Made by a program: the position numbers and the translations under genes
Shown here: positions 12,050 through 61,166 of the stretch, piece by piece
Layout of the letters: each line of letters starts with the position of its first letter
How positions within the stretch are numbered: position 1 is the first letter of the stretch
NCBI RefSeq assembly: GCF_001579845.1
Contig: NZ_CP007440.1
Coordinates: forward strand, 5,850,029-5,914,028
Length of the DNA stretch: 64,000 bases
Reading direction: 5' to 3'
Source: Rhodoplanes sp. Z2-YC6860
GTDB lineage: Bacteria; Pseudomonadota; Alphaproteobacteria; Rhizobiales; Xanthobacteraceae
The notes under the pieces: generated by a model
What the model was told of the DNA's origin: nothing
The model's input: the letters and a program-made list of their open reading frames with translations, nothing else
The model's database searches: none

Positions 12050-13030
12050 ATGAATCGTCGCGACCTCATCAAGCTCGGCCTCACTGCCATCGCGAGCGCG
12101 GCGATCCCGAAATCTGCTTTTGCGGCTTATACGGATCGGACCATCCGGCTGGTCATTCCGTTCTCGGCGGGCGGCGCAACCGACGTCGTCGGCCGCATGT
12201 GGGCCGAGCGGATGAAGGCGAAAGTCGGCACGGTGATCCCCGACAACAAGGGCGGCGGCGGCGGCGTGATCGGCGCTTTGGAAGTCGCGCGCGCCACGCC
12301 TGACGGCCTCACCTTCCTGTTCGGCAATTCCAGCACCCAGGTGCTGATCCCGGCGATCGCCGACAAGCCGCCCTATGATCCGGTCAAGGATTTCCAGGCC
12401 GTGTACATCATGGCGATTTCGCCGACCTCGATCGTGGTCCACGAGTCCGTGCCGGTGAAGACGCTGAAGGAGTTCATCGACTACGCCAAGGCCAATCCGG
12501 ACAAGCTGTCCTACGGCTCGGCCGGCGCCGGCACCATGACGAACCTGTCGGGCGAACTGTTCAAGCAGCTGATCGGCGTCCCCTCGATCACACACATTCC
12601 CTACAAGGGTGCTGCCCCCGGCATTACCGATCTGGCCTCGGGCCATATCCCGATGATGACCCCGAACGTCGGTGGTCCGCTCCTGCAGTTCCATCGCACC
12701 GGCAAGGTTCGCATTCTCGCGGTCGCCGCAAAGAAGCGCCTGCAGGCTGCGCCCGACATTCCGACCGCCGAGGAAGCGGGACTTCCCGGCATGGTCGCGG
12801 CAAATTTCAACGGCCTGTTCGCGCCCGCGGGCGTGCCGAAGGACATCATCGATCTCATCGCCACCGAGACCCGCACCGCGATGGCCGACAAGGCACTGCA
12901 GGATCAGATGATCACGTCAGGCTTCGAGCCGGTGCTGGATTCCGGCCCCGAGGCGGCGCAGCGCGAGGTGTCGAGCGAACTGGCTCGCTGGACGCCGATC
13001 GTGAAGTCGCTCGGGTTCAAGGTTCAGTAG
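12050..13030 (+). CDS. TTT-family (Bug/TctC) periplasmic substrate-binding protein 1
   Basis: A 326-residue binding protein. The first 26 residues are a signal peptide with the Tat-like start MNRRDLIK and cleavage near AFA-AYT. The mature part opens with TIRLVIPFSAGGATDVVGR, the ligand-site motif of TctC/Bug proteins, and later has the ATPDGLTFLF and HIPYKGAAPGITDL motifs. This fold binds small carboxylates or amides in the periplasm. No TctA/TctB partners are nearby. The gene diverges from the VOC/ThDP group and converges with the acyl-CoA ligase operon. Confidence 0.9.
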   Translation: MNRRDLIKLGLTAIASAAIPKSAFAAYTDRTIRLVIPFSAGGATDVVGRMWAERMKAKVGTVIPDNKGGGGGVIGALEVARATPDGLTFLFGNSSTQVLIPAIADKPPYDPVKDFQAVYIMAISPTSIVVHESVPVKTLKEFIDYAKANPDKLSYGSAGAGTMTNLSGELFKQLIGVPSITHIPYKGAAPGITDLASGHIPMMTPNVGGPLLQFHRTGKVRILAVAAKKRLQAAPDIPTAEEAGLPGMVAANFNGLFAPAGVPKDIIDLIATETRTAMADKALQDQMITSGFEPVLDSGPEAAQREVSSELARWTPIVKSLGFKVQ

Positions 13031-13048
13031 CGAACAGCGGCTCTCACC

Positions 13049-13155
13049 GGTCATTCCGGGGCACGCCGAAGGCGTGAACCCGGAATTCAGACAGAGGCAC
13101 TGAGTTCGGAACTGGATTCCGGATAACCGCGCTTCGCGCGGTTTCCGGAATGACC
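13049..13155. repeat. Intergenic palindromic repeat, GGTCATTCCGG family, copy 1
   Basis: A 107-bp element bounded by a perfect 11-bp inverted repeat (GGTCATTCCGG at 13049, its complement ending at 13155). It has inner GC-rich hairpins, including CCGCGCTTCGCGCGG. It fills the gap between the convergent binding-protein and acyl-CoA ligase genes, and could act as a transcript-end hairpin. Related copies are at 22692 and 46347. Confidence 0.8.
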
Positions 13156-13167
13156 GTGGGGAGAGAA

Positions 13168-19082: not shown

Positions 19083-20681
19083 ATGAAAGAAAACTTCCGC
19101 GAATTCCTCGACAGGCTGCGGCAGGCAGGGGAGCTCGTCGACCTGCGCCAGGCGGTCGACATCCGCCACATCGCAACGCTGGTCGACCAGGCCAAGACCG
19201 CGCTCTATTTCCACAACGTCATCGGCTACGACGTCCCGGTGGTGTCCGGCCTAGTCCGCTCCAAAGAGCGCGCCACCATGTCGATGGGCTGCGAGAAATT
19301 CGAGGACATCGAGCACAAGCTCGCCGCCGCGATCGCCAAGCCGATCCCGCCGAAATACGTCAACGGCTCGCCGACCCGCGAAGTGGTGATGGAGGGCAAT
19401 GACGTCGACCTGTTCAAGCTGCCGATCCCGATGTCGTCGATCTATGACGGCGGACCGATGATCACCGCCGGCGTGGTGATCGCGAAGGACCCCGAGTTCG
19501 GCATCAACAGCGGCGTCTACCGCATGATCGTCAAGGAAAAGGCGCTCACCGGCATCGACATCGTCACGCCGAACAACATGCGGTTTTTTGCGCAGCGCGC
19601 GCTTGAGCGCAACGAGCCGCTGCCGATCTCGATCTCCATCGGCACGCATCCCTTCGAGTTCGCGGGCGCTGGCTTCCGCGCGCCGCTCGGCACCGACGAG
19701 ATGGGCATTGCGGGCGGGCTTCGCGGCGAAGCCGTGCAACTCGCGCCCTGCTCCACCGTCGACGTGCCCTACATCGCCGACGCCGAGATCGTGCTGGAGG
19801 CCGAGATCCTGCCGACCGGCTGGACCTGGCCGGAGGGCCGCTTCGGCGAGTTCACGCGGCTGATGGGCGGCCTGCACTGGAATCCGCTGGTGCGCATCAA
19901 GGCCGTCGCGATGCGCAAGGACGCGGTCTACTACAACCTGCACATGCCGTGGGAGAACACCTGGCTCGCGGCGCCGACGCGCTACACGGCGATCCGGCAG
20001 GCGCTGAAGACCGCGAACGTCCAGGTCACCGGCCTCAACGTCACGCTCGGCGGCTGTGCGTTCTGGCACGCGATTGTGCAGATCAAGAAGGGCGCGGCCG
20101 GCGACGGCAAGAACGCGCTGCTCGCGGCGCTGTCGGTGATGGACCTCAAGCATGTGGTGGTGATCGACGACGACATCGACATCAACAATCCGACCGACGT
20201 GGAGTGGGCGATCGCCACCCGCGTGCAGGGCGACAAGGACGTCGTAATCATTCCAGGCGCGCGCGCGAAGCCGCTCGACCCGAGCCTCCTGCAGGGCGCG
20301 GGCGTGGTGCCGATCGGCACGAAGGTTGGCATCGACGCGACGATCCCGGAGCACATTCCGAAAGAGCACTACGAGCGCATCACCTACGCGTATGCCGAGA
20401 CCGCCAAGATCGACGACTACGTCAAGGGCAAGAAGGACGCGGCGGGCAAGTCTGGCGACACGGGTGCGGTGGAAGCGCTGGCGAAGAAGATTCTCGACGC
20501 GATCGACAAGGAGCCGCTGTACTACACCGACATCGCCGAGAAGTTCGCGGAATACGACTTCAACACCGTGGCGCGGGCGCTGGGCTTCCTGCACCAGACC
20601 GAAAAGCTCTGGCAGGATCCGAAGGGCAAGATGTGCGTCCGCGGCAGCAAGTTCGCGGCGGTGCTGCCGACGAAGAAGTAG
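19083..20681 (+). CDS. UbiD-family prenylated-FMN decarboxylase 1
   Basis: A 532-residue protein of the UbiD family, which (de)carboxylates aromatic or alpha,beta-unsaturated acids using prenylated FMN. The signature WPEGRFGEFTRLMGG, carrying the conserved acidic residues, lies just past mid-protein. Other family segments are PNNMRFFAQRALERNEPLPI, GTHPFEFAGA and VVVIDDDIDINNPTDVEWAI. The C-terminus (about 450-532) carries an extra region not seen in the second UbiD here. The start is ATG 19083; the upstream frame reads into the divergent promoter. It heads an operon with an amidohydrolase, a DHP-decarboxylase-like protein, two binding proteins and an isomerase. No UbiX prenyltransferase is in the window. 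Confidence 0.88.
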   Translation: MKENFREFLDRLRQAGELVDLRQAVDIRHIATLVDQAKTALYFHNVIGYDVPVVSGLVRSKERATMSMGCEKFEDIEHKLAAAIAKPIPPKYVNGSPTREVVMEGNDVDLFKLPIPMSSIYDGGPMITAGVVIAKDPEFGINSGVYRMIVKEKALTGIDIVTPNNMRFFAQRALERNEPLPISISIGTHPFEFAGAGFRAPLGTDEMGIAGGLRGEAVQLAPCSTVDVPYIADAEIVLEAEILPTGWTWPEGRFGEFTRLMGGLHWNPLVRIKAVAMRKDAVYYNLHMPWENTWLAAPTRYTAIRQALKTANVQVTGLNVTLGGCAFWHAIVQIKKGAAGDGKNALLAALSVMDLKHVVVIDDDIDINNPTDVEWAIATRVQGDKDVVIIPGARAKPLDPSLLQGAGVVPIGTKVGIDATIPEHIPKEHYERITYAYAETAKIDDYVKGKKDAAGKSGDTGAVEALAKKILDAIDKEPLYYTDIAEKFAEYDFNTVARALGFLHQTEKLWQDPKGKMCVRGSKFAAVLPTKK

Positions 20682-20726
20682 TACGCTCGTTAGGATGCGA
20701 CACCGCTGCAACACGAGCGGTGCGTT

Positions 20727-20826
20727 CCCTCTCCCGCTCGCGGGGGAGGGTTAGGGAGGGGGCCGCGGCGCGGCCGGTGCCTGCGGTAGCCCCCTCTCCA
20801 TCTCTCCCCCGCAAGCGGGGGAGAGA
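20727..20826. repeat. Intergenic GC-rich palindromic repeat after the UbiD gene
   Basis: Two hairpins face each other: CCCTCTCCCGCTCGCGGG with its complement (20727-20750), and CTCTCCCCCGCAAGCGGGGG (20802-20825), separated by about 50 bp of GC-rich sequence. The outer parts also pair with one another. It lies in the 194-bp gap between UbiD and amidohydrolase genes and could stabilise the upstream message. This family is found between genes in many Rhizobiales. Confidence 0.7.
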
Positions 20827-20875
20827 GCCGAGCAGAGTGCGTCGCTCTATCTGAGTTCAACGTGAAGCAACCAAC

Positions 20876-21727
20876 ATGATCATCGACACCCACACCCACG
20901 TCATCGCCACCGACACCAAGAAATATCCACTCGCGCCCCTGTTCGGAAAACAGTCCGACTGGTCGCAGGCTCATCCGATCGATTATCCCGACATGGTCAA
21001 GGCCGAAGCCGAGGCAGGCGTCGACAAGGCCGTGCTGGTACAGGCGTCCTCGGCCTATGCGTTCGACAACTCCTACGTGGCGGACTCGGTGGCCGCACAC
21101 CCTGAGCGCTTCACCGGCGTGTTCTCGATCGACGTGGTCGCGCCCGACGCGCCCGCCAAGATGAAGCACTGGATGAGCAAGGGGCTCACCGGCATGCGCA
21201 TCTTCACCTCGGGTTCGACGCACGCCGCGCAGGAGACTTTCTTTGCCGAGGAGAAGGCCTATCCGGCGTGGCAATTCGCCAACGACAACGACCTGTCGGT
21301 GTGCATGCAGATGCGGGTCGTGGGCCTGCCGCTCCTGGAAGAGAAGATCATCAAGCGCTTCCCCAAGGTGCGCATCCTGCTCGACCACTTCGCCCGCGCG
21401 GAAGCCGCCGACGGAATCCCCTTCCCGTCGGCCGCGCCGCTCTGGGCCTTGTCGAAGTATCCCAACGTCTATCTCAAACTCACCCACCGCCCGATCGAAC
21501 AGTCGGTGAAGGGCAAGTCGACGCCCGAGGCGTTCCTTGGGAAGGTGGTCAGCGAGTTCGGCGCCGGGCGCATCTGCTGGGGCTCGAATTTCCCAGCCGC
21601 CAAGGAGCCGCTGCCGGAACTGATCGAAATGGCGCGCAAGGCGCTTTCCTTCCTGTCGCAGGCGGATCAAAATCAAATCTTCCACAAGACCGCGCTCGCG
21701 CTCTACCCGGCGCTGGCCAAGAAGTAA
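20876..21727 (+). CDS. Amidohydrolase-2 family TIM-barrel protein with altered metal site
   Basis: A 283-residue metal-dependent hydrolase/decarboxylase-like protein (PF04909 type). The N-terminal HxH is present (His6, His8 in THTHV), as is a His in LLDHFAR. The strand usually giving a mid-barrel His reads VCMQMRV (Gln145), and the usual catalytic Asp of the GSD-P motif is Asn238 (WGSNFP). This family includes lactonases and decarboxylases such as ACMSD; with these changes, activity cannot be assumed. The start is the first ATG. It sits between UbiD and the DHP-decarboxylase-like gene, so it may process a ring-cleavage product or lactone. Confidence 0.75.
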   Translation: MIIDTHTHVIATDTKKYPLAPLFGKQSDWSQAHPIDYPDMVKAEAEAGVDKAVLVQASSAYAFDNSYVADSVAAHPERFTGVFSIDVVAPDAPAKMKHWMSKGLTGMRIFTSGSTHAAQETFFAEEKAYPAWQFANDNDLSVCMQMRVVGLPLLEEKIIKRFPKVRILLDHFARAEAADGIPFPSAAPLWALSKYPNVYLKLTHRPIEQSVKGKSTPEAFLGKVVSEFGAGRICWGSNFPAAKEPLPELIEMARKALSFLSQADQNQIFHKTALALYPALAKK

Positions 21728-21771
21728 GACCCCAAGAATTAAGACCCGAAGCAGAAACTGGGAGTGATGCC

Positions 21772-22668
21772 GTGCTGACCCGACCCGACAAACTGAAGCT
21801 CCACACGCTCTTGGGCAACTATGCCAACGTGATCGCGCTGAAGGATGGGCGCGTGAAGTCCGATCTGGTCGAATGGGACTTCCCGGACTATCCGGTGCCG
21901 AACCGCGGCTTCAAGCCGATGGTTCGCGAGCACAAGTTCGACTGCGGCGAGCTCGCCATCGTCACGTATCTGCAGGCCCGGGAATATGGCCTGCCCTACG
22001 TGCTGTTGCCCGCCACCGTGGTCGGCCGCGGCCAGCTGCACACGGTCGCCTACAACTCCGAGCGCGGCACGATGAAGCCGTCGGACCTCAACGGCAAGAA
22101 GTTCGGCGTGCGCTCCTACACGCAGACCACCGGCATCTGGGTGCGCGGCATCCTCGCCGAATCCTACGGCGTCGACTGGTCCAAGGTGGAGATCACCACC
22201 ATGGAGGATCCGCATGTGGCGCAGTACAAGGATCCCCCGTTCGTGAAGCGCGCGCCCGAGACCAAGCAACTGCCGCAGATGCTGATCGACGGCGAGGTCG
22301 ACGCCGCGCTGATCGGCGACAAGTTCCCTGATCCGCGCTTCAAGACGCTGGTGCCGGACGCCGAGGCCGCCAACAAGGACTGGGCGCTGAAGCATGGCGG
22401 CGTGCCGGTCAACCACATGGTGATCGTGCGCGAGAAAATCGCGAAAGAGCATCCCGAGGTGGTCGAAGAGATTTTCCGGCTGTTGAAGGCGGCGCGCGAT
22501 CTCGACACCAACGCACCGAAGGGCGCGCTTGATCCGTATCGGTTCGGCGTCGAGGCCAACCGCGAAGCGCTCGAGCGGGTCATCGACTACTCGCTCAAGC
22601 AACAGATGATCACGAAGCAGGTCAAGGTGGACGATCTGTTCAACGACCTGACGCGCAAGCTCGTGTGA
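21772..22668 (+). CDS. 4,5-dihydroxyphthalate decarboxylase-like protein (binding-protein fold)
   Basis: A 298-residue cytoplasmic protein with the periplasmic-binding-protein-like fold used by 4,5-dihydroxyphthalate decarboxylase (Pht5). Matching segments are FDCGELAIVTYLQAREYG, SYTQTTGIWVRGILAESYGV and MEDPHVAQYKDPP. No signal peptide is present, as expected for the enzyme. GTG 21772 has GGGAG 7 bp upstream and no in-frame ATG near. Pht5 converts dihydroxyphthalate to protocatechuate; the neighbouring UbiD enzyme suggests a related aromatic dicarboxylate, but the exact substrate is inferred. Confidence 0.78.
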   Translation: MLTRPDKLKLHTLLGNYANVIALKDGRVKSDLVEWDFPDYPVPNRGFKPMVREHKFDCGELAIVTYLQAREYGLPYVLLPATVVGRGQLHTVAYNSERGTMKPSDLNGKKFGVRSYTQTTGIWVRGILAESYGVDWSKVEITTMEDPHVAQYKDPPFVKRAPETKQLPQMLIDGEVDAALIGDKFPDPRFKTLVPDAEAANKDWALKHGGVPVNHMVIVREKIAKEHPEVVEEIFRLLKAARDLDTNAPKGALDPYRFGVEANREALERVIDYSLKQQMITKQVKVDDLFNDLTRKLV

Positions 22669-22691: not shown

Positions 22692-22796
22692 GGTCATTCC
22701 GGGGCGGCCCGAAGGGCCGAACCCGGAATCCAGAGCCGGGAGTGGAGTGCACATCTGGATTCCGGGTTCGCGCCTTCGGCGCGCCCCGGAATGACC
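22692..22796. repeat. Intergenic palindromic repeat, GGTCATTCCGG family, copy 2
   Basis: A 105-bp element with perfect 14-bp ends, GGTCATTCCGGGGC (22692-22705) and its complement (22783-22796). Inside are two hairpin arms of the type CCGAAGGGCCG and GCGCCTTCGGCGC. The right end contains the ATG used as start of the next binding-protein gene. Confidence 0.85.
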
Positions 22797-23783
22797 GTGT
22801 GGGGAGTGCTGCGCTCATTTCTCGCGATCGGACTCGTGACAGCGCTGGGCGTCGGCGCGGCGCACGCGCAGAGCGGCAACGCCGCAAACTTCCCCAACCG
22901 GCCGGTCAAGATCGTCGTGCCGTTCCCGGCCGGCGGGCCGACCGACGTCAACATGCGCATCATCGGCCAGAAGCTCTCGGAGCTCTGGAACCAGGGCGTG
23001 GTGATCGAGAACCGCCCCGGCGCCAACACCGGGATCGGCGCTCAGTTCGTGGCGAAGTCCGCGCCCGACGGCTACACCCTGCTCGCCGCCATGGACACCA
23101 CGCTGGTGATGAATCCCGCGACCGGCGCGTCGATGAACTACGATCCGTTCAAGGACTTCACGGCGATCACGCTCACCGCCAAGAACACCTCGCTGCTGAC
23201 CGTGCGCGCGAGCGACGGGCCGAAAACCGTCAAGGAGCTGATCGCGCGCGGCAAGGCGAGCGGCGCGAAACTCAACTACGGCGCCGGCATCACCATCACG
23301 CGGCTTGCGGGTGCGGTCTTTGCCAAGGCCGCCGGCATCGACGCGGTGCTGATCCCCTACAAGGGCAGCGCCGAGGTGGTGCAGGGTCTGCTCACCGGCA
23401 GCGTCGATTTCATCGTCGACGGCGTGGCGCCGAGCCTGCCGCCGATCGCAGGCGGTCAATTCCGCCCGCTCGCCAAGCTCAACAGCCGGCCGCTGCCGGT
23501 GCTCCCCGACGTCCCGTCGCTTTCCGAAGCGTCGGGCCTGCCGATCGACGAGATGTCGAGCTGGATCGGGCTCGTCGCGCCGGCCGGCACGCCTCAGACG
23601 ATTGTCCATCGGATTCAGCAGGACGTGGTGAAGGCCATCGCCGATCCGACGGTCGCCGAGCGGCTGGAGAAGGCCGGGATTCTCTCCGCCAGCACCACGC
23701 CCGAGGAATTCGAGCAATACTTCCGCAGCGAAGCCAAACGCTGGACAACCGTCTATAAGGAAAGCGGCATCAAGCTCGATTGA
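22791..23783 (+). CDS. TTT-family (Bug/TctC) periplasmic substrate-binding protein 2
   Basis: A 330-residue binding protein with signal peptide (hydrophobic core LAIGLVTALGVG, cleavage near AHA-QSG) and the family motif IVVPFPAGGPTDVNMR plus SAPDGYTLLAAM. The start is uncertain: ATG 22791 lies inside the end of the intergenic repeat and has no clear ribosome site; GTG 22797 and GTG 22806 are alternatives. It follows the DHP-decarboxylase-like gene and precedes the isomerase-like gene on the same strand, so it probably binds an acid metabolised by this operon. Confidence 0.85.
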   Translation: MTVWGVLRSFLAIGLVTALGVGAAHAQSGNAANFPNRPVKIVVPFPAGGPTDVNMRIIGQKLSELWNQGVVIENRPGANTGIGAQFVAKSAPDGYTLLAAMDTTLVMNPATGASMNYDPFKDFTAITLTAKNTSLLTVRASDGPKTVKELIARGKASGAKLNYGAGITITRLAGAVFAKAAGIDAVLIPYKGSAEVVQGLLTGSVDFIVDGVAPSLPPIAGGQFRPLAKLNSRPLPVLPDVPSLSEASGLPIDEMSSWIGLVAPAGTPQTIVHRIQQDVVKAIADPTVAERLEKAGILSASTTPEEFEQYFRSEAKRWTTVYKESGIKLD

Positions 23784-32371: not shown

Positions 32372-32543
32372 TGTGCTGTTTGCGGATATCCAGGCTGCAG
32401 CTCGGACCGGACCCTAACGCGTGCGCAAACGCGGGGCTAGCCGCGCCCGGCATGCGGCATTGAGCGCACCGGGGTTCCTGCCATTGGCAGAGGTGCTAGC
32501 ATCCTTCGATCAACAATAAAGAATGCCGCGCCGGAGGAAGAAA

Positions 32544-51253: not shown

Positions 51254-51289
51254 CCAACGACAAGAAAAACGCAATCAAGGGAGGATGTG

Positions 51290-52276
51290 ATGACGGCTCT
51301 GCCTCGAGGCATACGTTTGGCCGCGGTCCTGCTCGCGGGCTTCTTCACGGCGGCGCTGCCGCAGGCGAAAGCGCAGGAACTTGAGACCGGCAAGACCATC
51401 CGGCTGATCGTCGGCCTGTCGGCTGGCGGCGGCACGGACGTCACCGCGCGCCTGATCGCCCAGCAGATGTCGCAGAACATGGGCACGCCCGTGGTGGTGG
51501 AGAACAAGGCCGGCGGCAATTTCATTCCCGCCGCCAAGGAGGTTCTCGCCTCGCCGGCCGACGGCCATACGCTTTATTTCATTTCGTCGAGTTCTCTGAT
51601 CACGCAAGCGCTGCATCCAGACTATCCGGTCGATCTGCTGAAGTTTGCCGCAGTCGCAGAGGTCTCGACCGGCCCGCTGATCCTGGTCGCGAAAAACAGT
51701 CTCGGCGTTAAATCAGTCAAGGAACTGATCGATCTGGCCAAGAAGAATCCAGGCAAGCTGCAATTCGGCGCAGGCGGCGGCATCGGCAGCTCGCTCGGCT
51801 TCGGCATCGCTCTGCTGCAGAACCTGGCAAACATCAACATCAGCATCGTGCCCTATCGGGGCGCCGGACCCGCGCTCAACGATCTGCTTGGCGGCCACAT
51901 CGACGCCATGGTGGACGCCATGCCGGTGATGTCGATCCAGGCCAAAGAAGGCAAGGTGACGCCGCTCGCCGTGACCGGCACCAAACGCGCGGCCACGCTG
52001 CCCAACGTACCCACCATGCAGGAGCTCGGCTTTCCGACATTCGTGATTACCGGCTGGTACGGCATCCTGGCGCCGCCCGGCACGCCGCAGTCGATCGTGC
52101 AAAAGCTCAGCGAGGAAGCTGCGAAGGCGGTGAAGCCGGCGGATGTGGTCAAGACGCTGGGGACGCAGGGGATGGAGCCGCGCGGCACCAAGCCCGAGGA
52201 GTTCGCGAAATACATGGCCTCGGAGCTCGCGTTCTATTCAAAAATCGTCAAGGACGCGAACCTCAAGCCGGAATAG
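51290..52276 (+). CDS. TTT-family (Bug/TctC) periplasmic substrate-binding protein 9
   Basis: A 328-residue binding protein: signal peptide ending near AKA-QEL, ligand motif LIVGLSAGGGTDVTAR and SPADGHTLYFIS. AAGGGAGG lies 5 bp before ATG 51290, with a GTG just upstream as alternative. It follows the molybdenum hydroxylase by 36 bp and precedes the second C-C hydrolase-like gene. Confidence 0.9.
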   Translation: MTALPRGIRLAAVLLAGFFTAALPQAKAQELETGKTIRLIVGLSAGGGTDVTARLIAQQMSQNMGTPVVVENKAGGNFIPAAKEVLASPADGHTLYFISSSSLITQALHPDYPVDLLKFAAVAEVSTGPLILVAKNSLGVKSVKELIDLAKKNPGKLQFGAGGGIGSSLGFGIALLQNLANINISIVPYRGAGPALNDLLGGHIDAMVDAMPVMSIQAKEGKVTPLAVTGTKRAATLPNVPTMQELGFPTFVITGWYGILAPPGTPQSIVQKLSEEAAKAVKPADVVKTLGTQGMEPRGTKPEEFAKYMASELAFYSKIVKDANLKPE

Positions 52277-52345: not shown

Positions 52346-53509
52346 ATGTCCCGCGGCCCCTGGAACGACCACTTCCCCGACAACTTCCTCTGGTCCAACG
52401 CCACGCTGATCCTGAAGGGCATGGCGCCCTACGGCGTGGTCGCGCTCGAAGAAATGGACCGCTGCTGCGAGAAGCTCCGCGCGCGGCAGAGCGAGGCGGA
52501 CCGCGGCAAGGCCTGGTTCGAGGAATGGCGCGCCATCGGCGATCTGATCGAGAAGCGCGGCGACGAGGCACTGGCGAAAAACCGCAAGATCACGGCGGGC
52601 GACTATTACCTCCGTGCCGGCATCTATCACTACAACGCCGAACGGTTCATCTCGCCGAGCCCGGAAAAGAAGGCGCAGTGCGCGCACGCCTACAAGGTCT
52701 GGCACCAGGGCATCCGGCTGCGTTATCCGGAGGTCGAGTTCATCGAGGTGCCTTACGAAGGCACGACGTTGCCGGCGCTGTTCATGCCGGGCAAAGGCAA
52801 CGGCCCCAAGCCCACCGTCGTGGTGGTCAACGGCATGGACAATGCCAAGGAGATGAGCATCTTCTTCTGCGGGCTTGAGTTCGCGCGCCGCGGCTTCAAC
52901 ACGCTCTGCCTGGACGGTCCCGGCATGGGCGAGATGCGGCGCATGCGCGATATGCCGAGCCGCTACGACTACGAGGTGCCGGGCGCGGCCGCCTTCGACT
53001 ATCTCGCAAAGCGGCCCGACGTGGACGCCAAGCGCATCGCCATCATGGGCTACAGCTTCGGCGGCTACTACTCGTCGCGCATCGCGGCCTTCGAGAAGCG
53101 CTACGCCGCCTGCATCGCGCTCTCGGCACTGCACTGGGACCTTGCCGCCTGGCAGACCAAGATCAAGGAAGCCAACAAGAACGCACCCAAGAGCGTGGCG
53201 CAGTCGAACTTCCAATGGCGCTGGGTCGCGGGCGCCGCCGACGAGGACGAAGGCATCGAGATCGCCAGGAAATTCTCGCTGAAGGACGCGGCGAAGCACA
53301 TCACCTGCCCGTTCCTGGTGACACACGCCGGCAACGACCGCGTCGTGCCGGTCGAAAACGCGCAGAAGCTCTATGATGCGGTCGGCTCGTCCAACAAGAC
53401 CATCAAGATCTTCACCACCGAGGAAGGCGGCGCCGAGCACGCCCATGTCGACAACCGCCAGATCGGCATCGACTTCGCCGCCGACTGGCTCGCCGAGAAC
53501 ATGAAATAA
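52346..53509 (+). CDS. Alpha/beta hydrolase of the 2,6-dihydroxypseudooxynicotine hydrolase (C-C hydrolase) type, 2
   Basis: A 387-residue paralogue of the protein at 45173, with the same N-terminal cap (LWSNAT, AGDYYLRAGIYHYNAERF) and triad Ser237 (GYSFGG), Asp331 (HAGNDRVV), His365 (AEHAHVDNR). Both share the PYEGT-LPA segment before the core. By family it would hydrolyse a C-C bond next to a keto group, or an ester. The signal-less DctP-like gene follows 11 bp later. Confidence 0.78.
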   Translation: MSRGPWNDHFPDNFLWSNATLILKGMAPYGVVALEEMDRCCEKLRARQSEADRGKAWFEEWRAIGDLIEKRGDEALAKNRKITAGDYYLRAGIYHYNAERFISPSPEKKAQCAHAYKVWHQGIRLRYPEVEFIEVPYEGTTLPALFMPGKGNGPKPTVVVVNGMDNAKEMSIFFCGLEFARRGFNTLCLDGPGMGEMRRMRDMPSRYDYEVPGAAAFDYLAKRPDVDAKRIAIMGYSFGGYYSSRIAAFEKRYAACIALSALHWDLAAWQTKIKEANKNAPKSVAQSNFQWRWVAGAADEDEGIEIARKFSLKDAAKHITCPFLVTHAGNDRVVPVENAQKLYDAVGSSNKTIKIFTTEEGGAEHAHVDNRQIGIDFAADWLAENMK

Positions 53510-53520
53510 CGGGACACAGC

Positions 53521-54447
53521 ATGGCCAATCCGATCGTGATCCGTATGGGCGGCTACGGGCCGCCCACCACCGGCTTCAGTCAGGCGATGAAGCTCATCGG
53601 CGACAAGCTCGTCGCGCAGTTCGGCGACCGCATCGACGTGAAGTACGTCTGGAACATCATGGATTTCGGCTACAAGGCCGAGGAGATCCTGTGGCTGGTC
53701 GAAAGCGGCATCCTGACGCTCGGCTACCAGTCGTCGAGCTATCTCACCGACCGCGTGCCGGAGCTGAGCTTCGTCGACATGCCGTTCCTGTTCGAGAACA
53801 ATGACCACGCGCGCGGCGCGATGGACGGCGCGCTCGGCAAGCGGCTCGTACAGGCGATCGAGAGCAAGGTGAACTTCCGCATCCTCGGCTGGTACGAGAA
53901 CGGCTTCCGCCAGATCTCCAATCGGGTGCGCACCGTGCGCACGCCCTCCGATTTCAAGGCCATGACCATCCGCGTGCTGCCGAGCAAGATCCAGGCGCGC
54001 ACGTTCGAACTTCTTGGCGCCAAGCCGATGATCATGGACCTCACCGACGCGATCCGGATGATCAAAGCGTCAGAGATCGACGCCCAAGAGAACCCGCTGA
54101 CCAACACGGTCACCTACGGCGTTCACAAGTTCCATCGCTTTCACACCATCAGCAATCACTTCTACATCTCGCGGCCCATCTTCCTGCACCAGCCGACCTT
54201 CGACGCCTGGCCGGATGATCTGAAGGCCGCGATGCAGAAGGCGGTGAACGAGTCGGTCGCGTTCCAGCGCGGACTGCATGTGAAGGAGGAGCTGGACGCC
54301 GAGAATGCGATCAAGGCGGAAGGCTGCGAGATCGTCGAACTCGACGGCGCGCAGCACGATGCCTTCGCCAAGGCGGTGCAGCCGATCTACGCCGAGGCTC
54401 GGAAAGATCTCGGCAATGAGCTGTTCGACTTAGCTGGCACCAAATAA
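53521..54447 (+). CDS. DctP-family (TRAP) binding-protein-like protein without signal peptide
   Basis: A 308-residue protein of the TRAP-transporter DctP family: FVDMPFLFENNDHARGAMDG, RILGWYENGFRQISN, and MIMDLTDAIRMIKASEIDAQENPL are typical ligand-site pieces. It begins directly with mature-like sequence (MANPIVIRMGGYGPP) and has no hydrophobic leader. The preceding stop is only 11 bp upstream, so no longer start is possible. No DctQ or DctM gene is near. It is therefore predicted to be cytoplasmic. It may be an enzyme or an intracellular carrier that re-uses the fold, as Pht5-type decarboxylases re-use another binding-protein fold. Confidence 0.82.
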   Translation: MANPIVIRMGGYGPPTTGFSQAMKLIGDKLVAQFGDRIDVKYVWNIMDFGYKAEEILWLVESGILTLGYQSSSYLTDRVPELSFVDMPFLFENNDHARGAMDGALGKRLVQAIESKVNFRILGWYENGFRQISNRVRTVRTPSDFKAMTIRVLPSKIQARTFELLGAKPMIMDLTDAIRMIKASEIDAQENPLTNTVTYGVHKFHRFHTISNHFYISRPIFLHQPTFDAWPDDLKAAMQKAVNESVAFQRGLHVKEELDAENAIKAEGCEIVELDGAQHDAFAKAVQPIYAEARKDLGNELFDLAGTK

Positions 54448-54558: not shown

Positions 54559-55962
54559 TCAGCGCTTGCCCGACAACACCTGTCCAAGCCACCGCGGATC
54601 GAGCCGGTCGAGATCGCGCGACATCGCGACGATCTCGCCGCAGGTCTTGTCGCCGCCCCGCGGCGCAAGCTCCTGGATAAACCGCGCCTCGTGCTCGGCG
54701 GCGGTGAAGGGCTGCGAGGGGCTTCCCTTCGGCGCCGGCACCAGCATCGAAAACTTGCGCCCGTCACGCAGTACCACCGAGACCCGCGCCGCGGTGGAAA
54801 GCTCGTTGCTCGCGGCCTCGACCTCGTCGTCGAGCGCAATCGTGGTGCGCTCCTCGATGTCGTGAAGTCTCTTGTCCTTCAATCCAGCCTTATAGTCCGG
54901 AATGCCCAACGTGGTGATACCGCCTGGCGCAAGCGGAACCTTCGCAGCCAGCGCCACGCTGAACGGCAGGCACATCTGCGCGGCTTGCAAGTCCACCGGA
55001 TGTGGATTGGTCAATCGCCCCTGGATGATCTTCGGGATGCCCAGCGCCATGCTGGCGATGTCGTTGCTGCCGAATCCGTGCTGCTCGCGGAGGACCAGCA
55101 TGGCGTCGATGCCGGCCGCGACGCGGGCCGCAGCGGCATGCGACTTCACCAGCACGTCCATCAGATGGAAGCGCTGGCCCAGCCCCTCCTCGATCACCGC
55201 CGGATTGAAGCCGTCCGCATAGGCGCGGGCGAAGCCGCCCTGCCCTTCGATGATATCGTTGGGTCCGCTATAGCCCTGCTCGGCGAGCAACGCCGCGGCG
55301 ACGCCGCCCTCGGCGGCATGCGCGGCGTGAATGCGCTTCGCCGAGCCGCCCGAATAGTAGAATTGCGCGAGCCCGCCAGCGTGGCCGCCGGCGATGCCCA
55401 ACGCGTCGGCGATCTTCTGCGCCGCGTCCTTGCCACGGAACAGCAGCCGCCCCGACGCCGCCGCGGTGCCGAAACCGTCGCAGGTGCCTGTGCTCTGGAA
55501 GCCGCGCTTGAAATGGCCGGGCTGCACCGACAACCCGATGCGGATGATCGTTTCGTAAGCCGCAACGACCGCGGCCAGCACGTCGGGACCCGATGCGCCG
55601 GTGTGCTCGCCGACCGCAAGCGCCGCCGACCAAGCAGCGACCCCGGGATGCAGCATGGCGCCGACGTGGGTGTCGTCGCCATCGAAGCTCGAACCGAAGG
55701 TGACGTTGAGGAATGTCGCGTGCTGCGGATTGACCGTCTCGGCCTCGAACAGCACATGCGAATTTCCGGCGCGGCCGACCAGCCCGACATAACGCCGCGA
55801 CCAGTCGCTCCACGGCAGCCGCGCGCCGATCGAGCAGACGCGGAGGTGATCCAGAAACAGCCAGCCGAGCTTCCGCCGCACCTCGTCGGGCAAAGTCCTG
55901 GCGTCGAACCCGGCCGCAAAGGACGCCAGCGCTCGCGTGGATTGATGTTGCGCGATCGCCAT
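54559..55962 (-). CDS. MmgE/PrpD-family protein (2-methylcitrate dehydratase-like)
   Basis: A 467-residue protein of the MmgE/PrpD family, in which PrpD dehydrates 2-methylcitrate and other members act as cis-aconitate decarboxylase-like enzymes. Family segments are FGSSFDGDDTHVGAMLHPG, GSNDIASMALGIPKIIQGRL and FLDHLRVCSIGARLPW near the N-terminus. Start ATG 55962 overlaps the stop of the binding-protein gene (TGATG). It is the third gene of a tightly overlapping minus-strand operon with an altered hydrolase and a binding protein. Confidence 0.82.
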   Translation of the reverse strand: MAIAQHQSTRALASFAAGFDARTLPDEVRRKLGWLFLDHLRVCSIGARLPWSDWSRRYVGLVGRAGNSHVLFEAETVNPQHATFLNVTFGSSFDGDDTHVGAMLHPGVAAWSAALAVGEHTGASGPDVLAAVVAAYETIIRIGLSVQPGHFKRGFQSTGTCDGFGTAAASGRLLFRGKDAAQKIADALGIAGGHAGGLAQFYYSGGSAKRIHAAHAAEGGVAAALLAEQGYSGPNDIIEGQGGFARAYADGFNPAVIEEGLGQRFHLMDVLVKSHAAAARVAAGIDAMLVLREQHGFGSNDIASMALGIPKIIQGRLTNPHPVDLQAAQMCLPFSVALAAKVPLAPGGITTLGIPDYKAGLKDKRLHDIEERTTIALDDEVEAASNELSTAARVSVVLRDGRKFSMLVPAPKGSPSQPFTAAEHEARFIQELAPRGGDKTCGEIVAMSRDLDRLDPRWLGQVLSGKR

Positions 55963-56930
55963 CACTGCACCGTCTTGAACAGGTCGGCGAGGTTGCCGTA
56001 CTTCACGAAATCGCGCTCCATCACCTGGCGGAACTCATCAGGCTTGCTTGCCACGACCTCGGAACCGCTGCTCGCGAGATTGTCGGTCACGGGCTTCTCC
56101 GCCATCGCGGCGCGGACCGCGCCCGAAAGCTTGTCCATCGTGGGCGCGGGCAGCCCGGCCGGCGCCACCATGCCGATCCACGACACCGCCTCGTAGCCCG
56201 GCACGCCCGCCTCGGCCACGGTCGGCACCTCCGGCAGCGCCTTCGAACGATCGAGGCTGCCGACTGCAAGCGCGCGCAGCACGCCGCCGCGAATATGCGG
56301 AATGAGCCCCGCCATGAAGCCCCACATGGCCGGCACCTGGTTCGAGACCACCGCCTGGATGGCAAGCCCGGTGCCCTGGAACGGCACGTGGGTGATCTTC
56401 AGCCCGGTCATGCGGTTGAAGATCTCGCCCGCGAGATGATTGGGGCCGCCGACGCCGGACGACGCGTAGAACAACTCGCCGGGCTTCGAGCGCGCCAGCG
56501 CCATGAACTCCTGCAGGCTCTGCACCGGCAGCGACGGATGCACCACCAGCATCACGGTGTTGCGGGTGAGCAACGACACCGGCGCGAAGTCCTTCAGCGG
56601 GTCATAGCCGATCGACTGGCCGATATGCGGCGCGATCACCAGCGAGGATTCGGTCGAGACCAGCAGGGTGTGGCCGTCCGGATCGGACTTCGCCACCACG
56701 CCGGTGCCGATGCGTCCCGCGGCGCCGGCGCGGTTCTCGACCACGATAGATTGGCCGAGCGACGCCTGCATGTAAGGCGAAATGAGCCGCGACACGATGT
56801 CGGCGCCGCCGCCCGGCGCGAACGGCACGATGATGCGCACCGGATGCGTCGGATAGGCCTGCGCCCGCGCGCGTCCCGGCAGCGCGACGGCCGCTGCCAA
56901 TCCACCGACAACGCCTCGCCGCGTGATCAT
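55962..56930 (-). CDS. TTT-family (Bug/TctC) periplasmic substrate-binding protein 10
   Basis: A 322-residue binding protein with short Tat-like leader (MITRRGVVGGLAAAVALPG, cleavage near ARA-QAY), ligand motif IIVPFAPGGGADIVSR and SDPDGHTLLVST. Its ATG overlaps the stop of the hydrolase gene by 4 bp, and its stop overlaps the MmgE/PrpD start, so the binding protein is translationally coupled to enzymes on both sides. Confidence 0.9.
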   Translation of the reverse strand: MITRRGVVGGLAAAVALPGRARAQAYPTHPVRIIVPFAPGGGADIVSRLISPYMQASLGQSIVVENRAGAAGRIGTGVVAKSDPDGHTLLVSTESSLVIAPHIGQSIGYDPLKDFAPVSLLTRNTVMLVVHPSLPVQSLQEFMALARSKPGELFYASSGVGGPNHLAGEIFNRMTGLKITHVPFQGTGLAIQAVVSNQVPAMWGFMAGLIPHIRGGVLRALAVGSLDRSKALPEVPTVAEAGVPGYEAVSWIGMVAPAGLPAPTMDKLSGAVRAAMAEKPVTDNLASSGSEVVASKPDEFRQVMERDFVKYGNLADLFKTVQ

Positions 56931-57739
56931 TCGGCGGCCTTTGCCTTGGCGGCGTCGGCCTCGCGCATGAAGGCGAGCGCATGCTGCGCGCAAATGTCCG
57001 GCTCGACCGCCGCGATGTGATAACTGTCGCCCGGCATGACGATCACGCGCGACACCGGAATTTTCGCCGCGTAGCGCTCGACCGCCTCGACAGTCTGCAA
57101 GCCGCTCTCCTGTGTGGTGACGATCAGCGTCGGCGCGGCGATGCGCGACAACTCTTTTTCCAGCTCCATGTCGATCCGCGAAGCCGACGCGTTGAACGCC
57201 GCACGGCCTGACGTCTTGCCCATCAGTTCGTCGGCCCACCATTTCAGCTGCGCCTCGGACGCCGAGTTCCCGAGCCGCGCGCGCATGGTCTCGGCGGCCC
57301 AGCGATGCACGCCCTTGGTGCGAATGAGGTCGGCATTGCCGCTGCCGCTACCGCGCACCGGCGAGCCGAACAGGCAGAGCGAGCGCAGCCGCGACGGCTG
57401 ATCGATGGCCAGTCGCATGCAAGCCGAGCCGCCATACTTCGCGCCGATCAGATGACAGCGCTCGATCTGCAGCGCGTCGAGGAAGCGTCCGATGTCGGCA
57501 GCAAGCTCGGCCGCCGTCCAGCCGTATTCGACTGGCTCAGGCGACGAGCCGAAACCCGGGAGGTCGGGACGAATGACACGGTAGTGCCTCGATAGATGCG
57601 GCACCCAGCAGGTCCAGGCGCGCGAGGATTCTGAATTGCCGTGGATCATCACCACCGGCTCGGGCGCGGCCCACGGCTCGCCGAACCAGTGGTCCTCGTA
57701 AGCGATCGTCACGCCGGGACGCACTTCAACCTTGTTCAT
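56927..57739 (-). CDS. Alpha/beta hydrolase with Lys in place of the catalytic nucleophile
   Basis: A 270-residue alpha/beta-hydrolase: oxyanion loop MIHGNSESSRAW (31-42), RPDLPGFGSS, and His in GDSYHIAAV. The nucleophile elbow G-x-Ser-x-G is IGAKYGGS here, so Lys101 (codon 57437-57439, AAG) stands where Ser, Asp or Cys should be. It cannot work by the usual acyl-enzyme route and may be a non-catalytic binder or use another chemistry. Start ATG 57739 is preceded by a short frame without a better start. First gene of the minus-strand operon, divergent from binding protein 11. Confidence 0.8.
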   Translation of the reverse strand: MNKVEVRPGVTIAYEDHWFGEPWAAPEPVVMIHGNSESSRAWTCWVPHLSRHYRVIRPDLPGFGSSPEPVEYGWTAAELAADIGRFLDALQIERCHLIGAKYGGSACMRLAIDQPSRLRSLCLFGSPVRGSGSGNADLIRTKGVHRWAAETMRARLGNSASEAQLKWWADELMGKTSGRAAFNASASRIDMELEKELSRIAAPTLIVTTQESGLQTVEAVERYAAKIPVSRVIVMPGDSYHIAAVEPDICAQHALAFMREADAAKAKAAE

Positions 57740-57908: not shown

Positions 57909-58904
57909 ATGCGTCGATTGGGCGGCGTCTTGCTTTGGCTTGTCTGCGCAGTGCTGCTGGCAAGCCCTGCTTCCGCACAGGGCACCTATCCTAACCGTCC
58001 GATCCGCGTGCTGATCCCTTATGCGCCCGGCGGGCTCACCGATGTGGTGGCCCGATACTACGGCGATTATCTGCGCAAAACGCAGGGCCAGACCGTGCTG
58101 GTCGAGAACAAGCCCGGCGCCTCCGGCATCATCGCCATCGAGGAATTGGCCCGCGCCAAGCCCGATGGCTACACCATCATGGTCGGCAACATCTCGACCA
58201 ATTGCCTGACGCCGGTGCTGCTCGCCAAGCGCATGCGCATCGATTACGACAAGGATGTGCAGATCATCGCGCGGCTCGCCGATACGCCGGTGTTCTTCAT
58301 GGCGACGACGGTAAACTTTCCGCCGAAGACCTTCGCCGAGTTCGTCGATTACGCGAAAGCGCATCCCGATGAGGTGCGCTACGCCAGCGCCGGCGTCGGC
58401 GCCTATCAGCACGTCAACACCGAGATCCTGGCGAAGCGCGCCGGCGGGCTGAAGCTCGTCCACATTCCGTTCAAGGACGGCGGCCCGGGCATCCTGAAAG
58501 ATATCGCCGGCGGCGACACCCAGGTGTCGTGGTTCAACGTCTCCAACTCGGTCGGCATGATCAAAGCCGGCCGGGTGCGCCCGCTCGCGGTCGCGGCCGA
58601 TGCACGGCTGCCGGCCTGGCCGGACGTGCCGACCATCGCCGAGGTCGGCTTTCCAGGCTTCCGCCCGTCGCAATGGTCGGCGGCCTTTGCGCCGGCCGGC
58701 GTGCCGCGCGAGATCATCGACAAGCTGCACGCGGCGTTCACGGAAGCCGCACGCACGCCCGAACTGAAAGCGATCTTCGAGAAAAGCGGCATGTTCGCGC
58801 CGGTCGACAAGACCGCCGAAGATGCGCGCGCGTGGCTCAAGAACGAGATGGAAACCTGGCGGCGCGACATCGCCGATGCGGGCGTGAAGGTGGACAGCGA
58901 GTGA
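57909..58904 (+). CDS. TTT-family (Bug/TctC) periplasmic substrate-binding protein 11
   Basis: A 331-residue binding protein: signal peptide ending near ASA-QGT, ligand motif VLIPYAPGGLTDVVAR and KPDGYTIMVGN. GGGAGGAATGTA precedes ATG 57909. A single gene followed by a repeat and then the dehydrogenase operon; it is divergent from the altered hydrolase operon. Confidence 0.9.
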   Translation: MRRLGGVLLWLVCAVLLASPASAQGTYPNRPIRVLIPYAPGGLTDVVARYYGDYLRKTQGQTVLVENKPGASGIIAIEELARAKPDGYTIMVGNISTNCLTPVLLAKRMRIDYDKDVQIIARLADTPVFFMATTVNFPPKTFAEFVDYAKAHPDEVRYASAGVGAYQHVNTEILAKRAGGLKLVHIPFKDGGPGILKDIAGGDTQVSWFNVSNSVGMIKAGRVRPLAVAADARLPAWPDVPTIAEVGFPGFRPSQWSAAFAPAGVPREIIDKLHAAFTEAARTPELKAIFEKSGMFAPVDKTAEDARAWLKNEMETWRRDIADAGVKVDSE

Positions 58905-58932
58905 TTTGCCACCGCTGCAGAAGCCAACCCCG

Positions 58933-59060: not shown

Positions 59061-59103
59061 CAGGGCTGTCGGCACGCCGGATTGAAAGAAAAGGGATAGG
59101 AAA

Positions 59104-60156
59104 TTGAAAATCGGAATCATGCACGGCGACGACATCGGCCTGGAAGTCGTTCCCGAAGCCGTGAAGGTGATGAAAGCTGCGGCGGCCAAGACCGGGCTCG
59201 CCATCGAATGGCACGAGCTGCTGATCGGAAAGGCCGGCCACGAGAAATACGGCGACACGCTGCCCAAGATCACCGAGGACACGCTGCGCACCCTCGACGG
59301 CTGGTTCATGGGCCCGATCGGCCATGGTGCCTATCCGCGCGGCGACATGACCTGGGTGATGCCGCCGATCCGCAAGAAGTTCGATCTGTTCACCGCACTG
59401 CGGCCGTCGCTGTCGCATCCGACCATTCCGTCGATCCACAAGAACGTCGACATCGCGTTCTTCCGCGAGCTCACGGAGGGCATGCTTTATTCGGAGACGG
59501 TCGTCGCCGGCTTGCCCGAGTTCCGGCCGAACGACGACATCACCATCTCGTCGCGCGTGATCACCCGCAAGGGCTCGAACCGAGTCGCGCGCGAAGCGTT
59601 CGAATTGGCGCGCACGCGGCCGCGCAAGAAGGTCACCGCCGCACACAAGGAACCGGTCTATCGGCTGGCCTGCGGCATGTTCGCCGAGGAGTGCCGCAAG
59701 GTCGCGAAGGAATATCCGGACGTCGCCTATGACGAGATGATGATCGACTCGATCGCCATGAAGCTCGTCACCGATCCGCAGCGCTTCGACGTGGTCGTCA
59801 CCACCAACCAGTTCGGCGATATCCTGACCGACATCGGCGCGGGCCTGGTCGGAGGCTTGGGTCTCGCGCCGGGCCTGTGCATCGGCGAGAAGCAGGCGAT
59901 GGCACAGGCGACGCACGGCTCGGCGCCCGACATCTCAGGCCAGAACATCGCCAATCCCTACGCCATGATCGTGTCGGGCCAAATGCTGATGGGCTGGCTT
60001 GGTCGGAAGCATAAGAACGACAAGGCTATCGCTGCGTCCGACTTGATGCTCAAGGCGGTGACCAAGGTTCTGGCCGACGGCAAGGCGCTGACGCGCGATC
60101 TCGGCGGCAAGGCGAGCACGACCGAAATGGGAGACGCCATCGTCGCGGCGCTCTGA
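59104..60156 (+). CDS. Isocitrate/isopropylmalate dehydrogenase-family protein
   Basis: A 350-residue beta-decarboxylating dehydrogenase. The N-terminal KIGIMHGDDIG matches the family start, the segment YDEMMIDSIAMKLVTDPQRF, then VVTTNQFGDILTDIGAGLVGG, carries the metal and substrate Asp residues, and ATHGSAPDISGQNIANP lies near the nucleotide site. It oxidises and decarboxylates a 2-hydroxy-3-carboxy acid such as isopropylmalate or tartrate; the context points to a catabolic diacid, not leucine synthesis. Start TTG 59104 with AAGGGATAGG upstream is needed to keep the first strand; ATG 59119 would cut it. It heads an operon with a binding protein and two acyl-CoA dehydrogenases. Confidence 0.85.
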   Translation: MKIGIMHGDDIGLEVVPEAVKVMKAAAAKTGLAIEWHELLIGKAGHEKYGDTLPKITEDTLRTLDGWFMGPIGHGAYPRGDMTWVMPPIRKKFDLFTALRPSLSHPTIPSIHKNVDIAFFRELTEGMLYSETVVAGLPEFRPNDDITISSRVITRKGSNRVAREAFELARTRPRKKVTAAHKEPVYRLACGMFAEECRKVAKEYPDVAYDEMMIDSIAMKLVTDPQRFDVVVTTNQFGDILTDIGAGLVGGLGLAPGLCIGEKQAMAQATHGSAPDISGQNIANPYAMIVSGQMLMGWLGRKHKNDKAIAASDLMLKAVTKVLADGKALTRDLGGKASTTEMGDAIVAAL

Positions 60157-60191
60157 CCAAACAACGACAAGAATTCAACGGGAGGACGGCA

Positions 60192-61166
60192 ATGAAAGGG
60201 GTACTGACCAGAACCGCGATTGTGCTTGGCCTCCTTGCTGTGGCGCCGGCGGTGGCCTCGGCGGAGGTTTGGCAGCCAACGCGGTCGATCAAGATGATCT
60301 GCCCGTTTCCGGCCGGCGGCGGCACCGATCTCATTGCCCGCCTTGCCGCAAAAGGCCTGAGCGACCGGCTCGGCCAGCAGGTCTATGTCGAGAATCGCGG
60401 CGGCGCCAACGGCGCGATCGGCGTGCAGCAACTGATGCAATCGGACCCCGACGGCTACACCATCGGCGCCATTTCCGACGGGCCGATGATCGTCAATCCG
60501 GCGCTCTATCCCAACAACCCGTATCAGCCGCTGCGCGACTTCATCGCGGTCGGCCAGATGATCAAATTTCCGTCGCTGCTGACCGCGAACCCATCGACCG
60601 GCATCAAGACCGTGGCCGATATGATCAAGGCCGCGAAGGAAAAGCCAGGCGCGCTGAACTTCTCGTCGGGCGGCATCGGCAATTTCAGTCACATGGGACT
60701 TGAGCTCCTGGCGATTCAAGCGGGCATCAAACTCACCCACGTGCCCTATCGCGGGGTCGGGCCCGCGACCACCGCGGTGCTCGGTGGCGAGGTCCAGCTC
60801 ATGTACAACAACGTCGCCACCGCGATCGAGCATGTGCGCGGCGGCAAGCTCAACGCGCTCGGTGTCGGCGAACCCAAGCGCATCGAAGGCCTGCCGGACA
60901 TTCCGGCCATTGCAGAGACGGTTCCGGGATTCGAGATGGCAGCCTGGGTCGGTATCTTCGTGCCGGTCAAAACGCCGCAGCCGATCGTGGACCGGCTCAC
61001 CAAGGAAACCGCAGCCTTCCTCGAAGACCCGGAGACCAAGAAATACTTCCAGCAGCAATTCATCGTCGCGGCCTACAAGAACCCCGAGCAGTTCCAGAAA
61101 TACATCAAAGTCGAGCTCGACCGCTGGGCCGACGTGGTCAAGACCGCAGGCATCAAGGGCGAATAG
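60192..61166 (+). CDS. TTT-family (Bug/TctC) periplasmic substrate-binding protein 12
   Basis: A 324-residue binding protein with signal peptide ending near ASA-EVW, ligand motif MICPFPAGGGTDLIAR (Cys in place of the usual Val) and SDPDGYTIGAIS. GGGAGG precedes ATG 60192. It lies between the dehydrogenase and the acyl-CoA dehydrogenase pair, with gaps of 35 and 9 bp, so it is part of the operon. Confidence 0.9.
   Translation: MKGVLTRTAIVLGLLAVAPAVASAEVWQPTRSIKMICPFPAGGGTDLIARLAAKGLSDRLGQQVYVENRGGANGAIGVQQLMQSDPDGYTIGAISDGPMIVNPALYPNNPYQPLRDFIAVGQMIKFPSLLTANPSTGIKTVADMIKAAKEKPGALNFSSGGIGNFSHMGLELLAIQAGIKLTHVPYRGVGPATTAVLGGEVQLMYNNVATAIEHVRGGKLNALGVGEPKRIEGLPDIPAIAETVPGFEMAAWVGIFVPVKTPQPIVDRLTKETAAFLEDPETKKYFQQQFIVAAYKNPEQFQKYIKVELDRWADVVKTAGIKGE

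Follow-up and report, generated by a model that had tools for sequence, protein, structure and literature searches.

Orphan TctC/Bug receptors among catabolic genes in Rhodoplanes sp. Z2-YC6860 and the conservation of receptor-enzyme pairs in related species

The GG-x-x-D loop of TctC/Bug receptors binds the ligand. The role of the many orphan receptors, whose genes lie without TctA or TctB genes alongside, is a question for the Bug/TctC field, and it bears on the stretch analysed here, a window of 64,000 nucleotides from Rhodoplanes sp. Z2-YC6860 (positions 5850029-5914028 of a single 8,193,889-bp contig) in which twelve such receptor genes are interleaved with genes for catabolic enzymes. 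The closest description concerns a genome of 8.193 Mb with a GC content of 63.5% and 434 receptors (PMC5994714), which is almost certainly the same genome; the orphan receptors, the small number of TctAB permeases and the hypotheses of a shared permease and of a sensory role are all stated there. In Bordetella, orphan-rich sets of 79 to 181 Bug receptors are accompanied by at most four permease representatives (cited via PMC5994714 and PMC5812351). The gene of the receptor TphC lies in a catabolic operon and its membrane subunits, TpiBA, are encoded elsewhere (PMC8556258), and among clusters with tripartite tricarboxylate transporter (TTT) genes there are TctC genes that adjoin arylmalonate decarboxylases (AMDases; PMC4996985).

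The receptors that we examined have, for the most part, kept their enzyme neighbours in related species. We lean towards the reading that they are capture proteins for the substrates of the neighbouring enzymes and feed a few shared TctAB permeases. Gene calls and starts came from a purpose-made codon-usage caller, longer starts were considered as well, and genes are named here by their first coordinate in the window. As originally predicted, all twelve receptors match PF03401 (177 to 256 bits, with a cut-off of 27), all twelve have an intact GG-x-x-D loop, and none has TctA or TctB alongside, there being zero matches to PF01970 or PF07331 in the window. The exact motif is present in 104 of the 170 full-length receptors from the window and from a genome sample comprising 140 stretches of 20 kb, one every 51.2 kb, that span 10 kb to 7.15 Mb of the 8.19 Mb. 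As to the signal peptide predicted for each receptor, eleven N-termini with the longer starts reach a heuristic hydropathy of at least 1.8; 12050 reaches only 1.7 and has a twin-arginine motif. The N-termini of both 12050 and 55962 resemble twin-arginine leaders. The same threshold is passed by 104 of the 170 sampled receptors with the caller's starts and the hydropathy heuristic alone, and a SignalP-predicted leader has been reported for 355 of 434 receptors (PMC5994714). The twelve receptors and the enzyme genes beside them are as follows.

12050-13030, plus strand: TctC/Bug receptor 1; PF03401, 203.6 bits; GGxxD; RR motif in a twin-arginine-like N-terminus; solitary, with one divergent and one convergent neighbour
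22791-23783, plus strand: TctC/Bug receptor 2; PF03401, 176.7 bits; flanked by a 4,5-dihydroxyphthalate decarboxylase-like gene and an Amdase-family gene
24738-25709, plus strand: TctC/Bug receptor 3; PF03401, 177.1 bits; Amdase-family gene 175 bp upstream
32523-33539, plus strand: TctC/Bug receptor 4; PF03401, 235.8 bits; solitary; SDR gene divergent, receptor 5 convergent
33556-34533, minus strand: TctC/Bug receptor 5; PF03401, 206.7 bits; near Amidohydro_2 (35127-36134) and UbiD (36192-37664) genes
44058-45032, minus strand: TctC/Bug receptor 6; PF03401, 255.6 bits; acyl-CoA dehydrogenase gene 18 bp downstream
46542-47525, plus strand: TctC/Bug receptor 7; PF03401, 248.4 bits; in tandem with receptor 8, at 53% identity
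47597-48628, plus strand: TctC/Bug receptor 8; PF03401, 210.9 bits; [2Fe-2S] gene of the molybdo-hydroxylase small-subunit type 22 bp downstream
51287-52276, plus strand: TctC/Bug receptor 9; PF03401, 186.8 bits; MoCoBD gene 33 bp upstream (63 bp with the shorter start), FrsA-like hydrolase gene 69 bp downstream
55962-56930, minus strand: TctC/Bug receptor 10; PF03401, 216.4 bits; overlaps a hydrolase gene (4 bp) and an MmgE/PrpD gene (1 bp)
57909-58904, plus strand: TctC/Bug receptor 11; PF03401, 191.6 bits; solitary; Iso_dh gene 199 bp downstream
60192-61166, plus strand: TctC/Bug receptor 12; PF03401, 218.9 bits; Iso_dh gene upstream, two acyl-CoA dehydrogenase genes downstream
19083-22668, plus strand: UbiD decarboxylase, Amidohydro_2 and 4,5-dihydroxyphthalate decarboxylase-like genes, upstream of receptor 2 (Pfam, NCBIfam TIGR00148, 9jp7)
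23807-24562, plus strand: Amdase-family gene, downstream of receptor 2; PF17645, 79.5 bits; under the NCBIfam cut-offs for EutA and arylmalonate decarboxylase
42873-44039, minus strand: acyl-CoA dehydrogenase, downstream of receptor 6 (PF00441, PF02771, PF02770)
48651-51253, plus strand: Fer2_2 and MoCoBD genes of the two-subunit molybdopterin hydroxylase type, between receptors 8 and 9 (Pfam)
54559-55962, minus strand: MmgE/PrpD family gene, downstream of receptor 10; PF03972, 180.5 bits
56927-57739, minus strand: alpha/beta hydrolase, upstream of receptor 10; PF00561, 88.7 bits
59104-60156, plus strand: isocitrate/isopropylmalate-type dehydrogenase (Iso_dh), upstream of receptor 12; PF00180, 268 bits
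61176-63598, plus strand: two acyl-CoA dehydrogenases, downstream of receptor 12 (Pfam)

Orthologues were compared for 22791, 33556, 44058, 46542, 47597, 51287, 55962, 57909 and 60192. A relative of 22791 at 72-81% identity occurs in eight of ten genus mates. In seven of these, neighbours of both types, 21772 and 23807, are retained; in G004 only a piece of the 21772-type gene is seen. At six more distant loci (51-65%) the 21772-type neighbour is absent throughout, and an Amdase-family gene lies nearby at one of them (L173), 7 kb from the G004 relative on the same contig. Both relatives of 55962, in G004 and G009, keep both partners in the same gene order. For 60192, the Iso_dh gene and the first acyl-CoA dehydrogenase gene are kept at 3/3 alphaproteobacterial loci (L150, L151 and L153; 56-59%), the second acyl-CoA dehydrogenase gene at two of the three, L151 ending too early; besides genus mates, two other alphaproteobacterial metagenome-assembled genomes (MAGs) keep this context. 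Four beta- and gammaproteobacterial loci (31-38%) are without it, one of which, L152, is cut off just past the match. On the Rhodoplanes piscinae contig that holds L153 (G004:C2), 46542, 47597, 51287 and 57909 are also in the same place, and orthologues of 33556 occur in eight of ten genus mates at 69-82%. The surroundings of 22791 and 44058 orthologues, and of L148 and L149, were seen over about 1.5 kb per side. Ratios of nonsynonymous to synonymous substitution (dN/dS) against the R. piscinae contig were taken over 16 genes: six receptors lie at 0.19-0.37, the remaining ten genes at 0.07-0.32. Two FrsA-like hydrolase genes, 45173-46336 and 52346-53509, flank the block of 46542, 47597 and 51287, and both are in place in R. 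piscinae.

The neighbours of receptors are also biased genome-wide. We tested 54 clusters of genes for enrichment within two genes of sampled receptors, the window stretches L115 and L116 included, and identified cluster representatives by Pfam. Six of seven members of a UbiD cluster lie near receptors (P = 1.4e-4, or about 0.008 over 54 tests), none of them a window gene. An acyl-CoA dehydrogenase cluster follows with five of six (P = 7e-4), which is marginal at about 0.04 over 54 tests and includes two window genes among the six; next in enrichment come alpha/beta hydrolases, with two clusters, and one cluster of the mandelate-racemase type. Pfam scans compared 125 neighbour genes, nine of them the window's own, with 125 control genes and rest on the 25 commonest of 165 neighbour and 172 control families. 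Thiamine pyrophosphate (TPP) enzymes, luciferase-like monooxygenases, amidohydrolases, hydrolases, Ribonuc_L-PSP, MarR, MoCoBD, UbiD and MmgE/PrpD are the commonest among neighbours (3-5 each), and BPD_transp_1, MFS_1, BPD_transp_2 and ABC_tran among controls (4 to 6 each). With the window stretches excluded, proteins with at least four hydrophobic segments make up 7 of 211 genes beside receptors versus 182 of 1776 elsewhere (P = 4.6e-4). Within the window, degradative-type enzymes predominate between the receptors according to the Pfam scan, and further examples are the Amidohydro_2 gene 20876, the Amdase-family gene 30771, the AMP-binding genes 13168 and 27091 and the FrsA-like hydrolase genes 45173 and 52346.

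The original description of the packing was too strong, because six of the twelve receptors have a close gene and overlaps occur at the 55962-57739 locus only. A same-strand non-receptor gene lies within 50 bp of 22791, 44058, 47597, 51287, 55962 and 60192, which is half of the receptors and not most of them; 51287 counts with its longer start only, the gap being 63 bp with the caller's start. The 4-bp overlaps said to be frequent reduce to a sole overlapping receptor, 55962-56930, which shares 4 bp with 56927-57739 and 1 bp with 54559-55962. Nor is there strictly one receptor per enzyme set, since 46542 and 47597 form a tandem pair and 32523 and 33556 are convergent neighbours.

The permeases lie far from the window. 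Profile matches place the nearest TctA at contig position 6206932, about 293 kb beyond the window end, and tctAB pairs just outside the window are thereby rejected. Whole-genome profile matches give nine TctA and nine TctB, and seven of the nine TctAB sets share a same-strand gene run with a receptor. In one set (L141) a receptor is one gene from TctB, the intervening gene encoding a Peptidase_S15-family hydrolase. The TctBA pair at contig positions 1183978-1185780 (L142) has zero same-strand TctC genes in an 8-kb stretch and is a candidate shared permease. In L146 (contig 7512500-7520500), one of the seven, the TctBA pair has three receptors on each side; two of those downstream are 78% identical and the third is cut at the stretch end. 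In L145 (contig 7185500-7193500) the TctA frame also contains a TctB match, an apparent TctA-TctB fusion. The comparison at these loci took in 13 receptors near TctA, of which some are non-cognate. The predicted sharing of a distant permease is possible given nine TctAB sets, one without a nearby same-strand receptor.

The twelve belong to a family of roughly 450 members, of which they are a small part. A first look found 462 TctC candidates in the genome, and the best 150 of the 462, which were scored, are all above the cut-off at 218 bits or more. With a profile derived from the receptors in the window, 161 receptors were counted in the 140 sampled stretches, which gives an estimate of 460 per genome with the two window-overlapping stretches excluded, slightly high because receptors are cut at stretch ends; 462 candidates agree well with this estimate and with the published 434. 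Twelve receptors in 49.1 kb compare with 2.76 expected (negative-binomial P = 0.0018), and since 0.31 such windows are expected in a search of the whole genome, the window is a dense patch and no outlier. The ten genus mates have 88-435 first-look candidates each, and both G010 (360 in 4.5 Mb) and G018, from another genus (362 in 4.9 Mb), are denser than the window's genome, all of these being unscored candidates from assemblies of which several are in hundreds of contigs, so that one gene may count twice. From these counts the receptor expansion looks genus-wide, with some relatives denser than the published genome. Among 37 family-level genomes (G000-G036), none with more than three TctC candidates is without a TctA match; the two without one are G017 (0 TctC candidates) and G028 (3), and G012 has 78 TctC candidates and 2 TctA, TctA being counted among the best 6 scored matches per genome. 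These counts are compatible with permease sharing, neither contradicting nor demonstrating it.

The twelve did not arise by a single recent tandem expansion. Among 164 of the 170 full-length receptors that remained after duplicate removal, the mean mutual identity of the twelve is 32.5%, versus 30.5% in random receptor sets of twelve, and only 46542 and 47597 (53%) are mutual close relatives; an expansion of this kind is therefore rejected. Their mean tree distance is a little under random, with 3.5% of random sets as low, which points toward expansion. The closest sampled relative lies more than 40 kb off for 143 of the 164 receptors, and 33% of the 33 pairs less than 1.5 kb apart exceed 45% identity, versus 0.7% of pairs more than 20 kb apart. 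The proposed link of receptors to neighbouring enzymes finds support among the orthologues examined and none among paralogues. Joint duplication of receptor and enzyme as cassettes is rejected (P = 0.77 and P = 0.58 in the shuffling tests given below, and 3/96 pairs): a shared neighbour family is found for 3 of 96 distant pairs above 45% identity versus 590 of 13065 other pairs. Under simple co-duplication, relatedness would be expected to track neighbour family, contrary to this result.

In the reading that we favour, each receptor would capture the acid that the neighbouring enzymes degrade and would deliver it to one of the few shared TctAB permeases. It rests on some 460 receptors against nine TctA and nine TctB, on neighbours biased to enzymes with multi-pass membrane proteins rarer, on the orthologous pairs kept, on dN/dS of 0.19-0.37 in six receptors, and on the TphC precedent (PMC8556258). 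Several observations weigh against it. A relative of 55962 at E 1e-90 was found in only two of ten genus mates, and of the two closest foreign relatives of 44058 one (84%) has an acyl-CoA dehydrogenase gene nearby, with something between, and the other (74%) has none. For four receptors (12050, 24738, 32523 and 57909) the nearest same-strand gene is more than 170 bp away. In the genome-wide sample, L115 and L116 included, 60 of 137 receptors have a close same-strand neighbour versus 1015 of 2088 other genes, and overlaps are rarer for receptors (8 of 137 versus 390 of 2088); unusual operonic packing is rejected, the sampled receptors being no more operonic than other genes. Among distant receptors, a neighbour family shared within three genes brings no more similarity than shuffling does (593 pairs, P = 0.77), and the same holds for a family shared by immediate neighbours (102 pairs, P = 0.58). 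The orthologue synteny may also be partly plain synteny or slow rearrangement, since receptor loci alone were compared; counting against this, only the four genes of 59104-63598 match the window at L150, and the adjoining receptor 57909 is unmatched.

Other explanations fit parts of these data. The orphan receptors could be periplasmic sensors that, once ligand is bound, signal to a partner such as a membrane kinase that controls the adjoining operon, as BctC-BctE does in Bordetella (PMC5812351), and a receptor near 14 of 22 histidine kinases and a transcription factor in the vicinity of 70 of 434 receptors (PMC5994714) are in line with this, as are MarR families at 4 of 125 neighbours, outside the top 25 of the control. 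Of the 57 window genes, all scanned, however, none beside any of the twelve belongs to a kinase or transcription factor family, two-component genes adjoin 0/12 receptors, and the only regulator found, a response-regulator receiver, lies at 6345-6710 and thus 5.3 kb ahead of receptor 1, so that the sensory role put forward in the original prediction is unsupported in the window. Regulators overall are not clearly enriched, because LysR (HTH_1) and GntR families, at 2 of 125 each, appear among the controls instead, and the 22 kinases of the genome (PMC5994714) are too few for one per receptor. We therefore regard a sensory role as unlikely, with sensing possible elsewhere in the genome.

Service to other permease families (ABC, TRAP or MFS), or a role as periplasmic ligand buffers, appears less probable still: links to ABC genes are reported for 41 receptors and to TRAP genes for 8 (PMC5994714) and ABC_tran occurs in 3 of 125 neighbours, but it also occurs in 4 of 125 controls. 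Only 6 of 63 members of the ABC-ATPase cluster lie within two genes of a receptor, which is no enrichment (odds ratio 0.5, P = 0.13), and there is a shortage of multi-pass membrane proteins near receptors. The least probable of these explanations, in our view, is that the receptor genes spread as mobile or hitch-hiking duplicates and have their neighbours incidentally. Relatedness untied to neighbour family and the distance of most closest sampled relatives agree with it; the enzymes kept by orthologues in genus mates, the context of 60192 in the two other MAGs, the bias of neighbours to catabolic enzymes and a dN/dS well under 1 in six receptors do not. The conserved pairs argue both against pure tandem expansion and against purely incidental neighbours. 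Beyond the capture and shared-permease reading, we propose only tentatively, and with more doubt than confidence, that hundreds of receptors, each locked to one enzyme set, share about nine TctAB permeases, including the receptor-less hub at 1183978-1185780, and that duplicating and retargeting a single receptor gene opens up a new substrate. If this were true, receptor-enzyme linkage could let ligands be read off genome-wide.

Ligands were not fixed by the nearest solved structures for the five of twelve receptors compared; the best solved relative of 33556 is the terephthalate-binding protein 8hka (228 bits). Conserved receptor-enzyme pairs yield guesses of their own, for example 22791 with its 4,5-dihydroxyphthalate-decarboxylase-like and Amdase-family enzymes. 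The former, 21772-22668, is NMT1-like, leaderless at its called start and related to 4,5-dihydroxyphthalate decarboxylase (9jp7), and so represents a binding-protein-like enzyme family beside a receptor. A second leaderless gene, 53521-54447, encodes a DctP (TRAP receptor) family protein without signal peptide, whose first ATG, GTG or TTG start lies at the mature fold; the frame is open for 48 codons further upstream, with no common start there. It has matches at E <=1e-60 in 16 of 61 genomes, its own counted, and in G010, G012, G006, G001 and G002 the entire open frame is 308-313 aa, which therefore leaves no room for a leader in five genomes. The protein may have arisen from a binding protein and become a cytoplasmic enzyme; no paper on leaderless DctP proteins came up in a literature search. 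At 9900-11008, a TPP enzyme is encoded as separate N-domain and C-domain genes with a 4-bp overlap, a split that we take to resemble two-subunit sulfopyruvate or phosphonopyruvate decarboxylases.

Compared with the known systems, the layout, described as unusual in the original prediction, is not new, since the expansion in the same genome is published (PMC5994714) and TphC likewise sits in a catabolic operon with its permease elsewhere (PMC8556258). Six of the twelve window receptors have a same-strand enzyme gene within 50 bp. TphC differs in being a single receptor whose ligand, terephthalate, and permease are both established (PMC8556258). The Bordetella Bug proteins differ in being betaproteobacterial and fewer (via PMC5994714 and PMC5812351). 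In the AMDase clusters described in PMC4996985, alphaproteobacterial TTT clusters have all three subunits and betaproteobacterial ones orphans only, whereas the alphaproteobacterium studied here has the receptor only (22791 beside the Amdase-family gene 23807). The links tallied in PMC5994714 are those with transporters, kinases, motility genes and transcription factors, and the available part of its main text gives no counts for catabolic enzymes or orthologous conservation. The giant orphan receptor family of this bacterium thus appears to have been described already, and what is new here is some quantitative detail on receptor-enzyme linkage.

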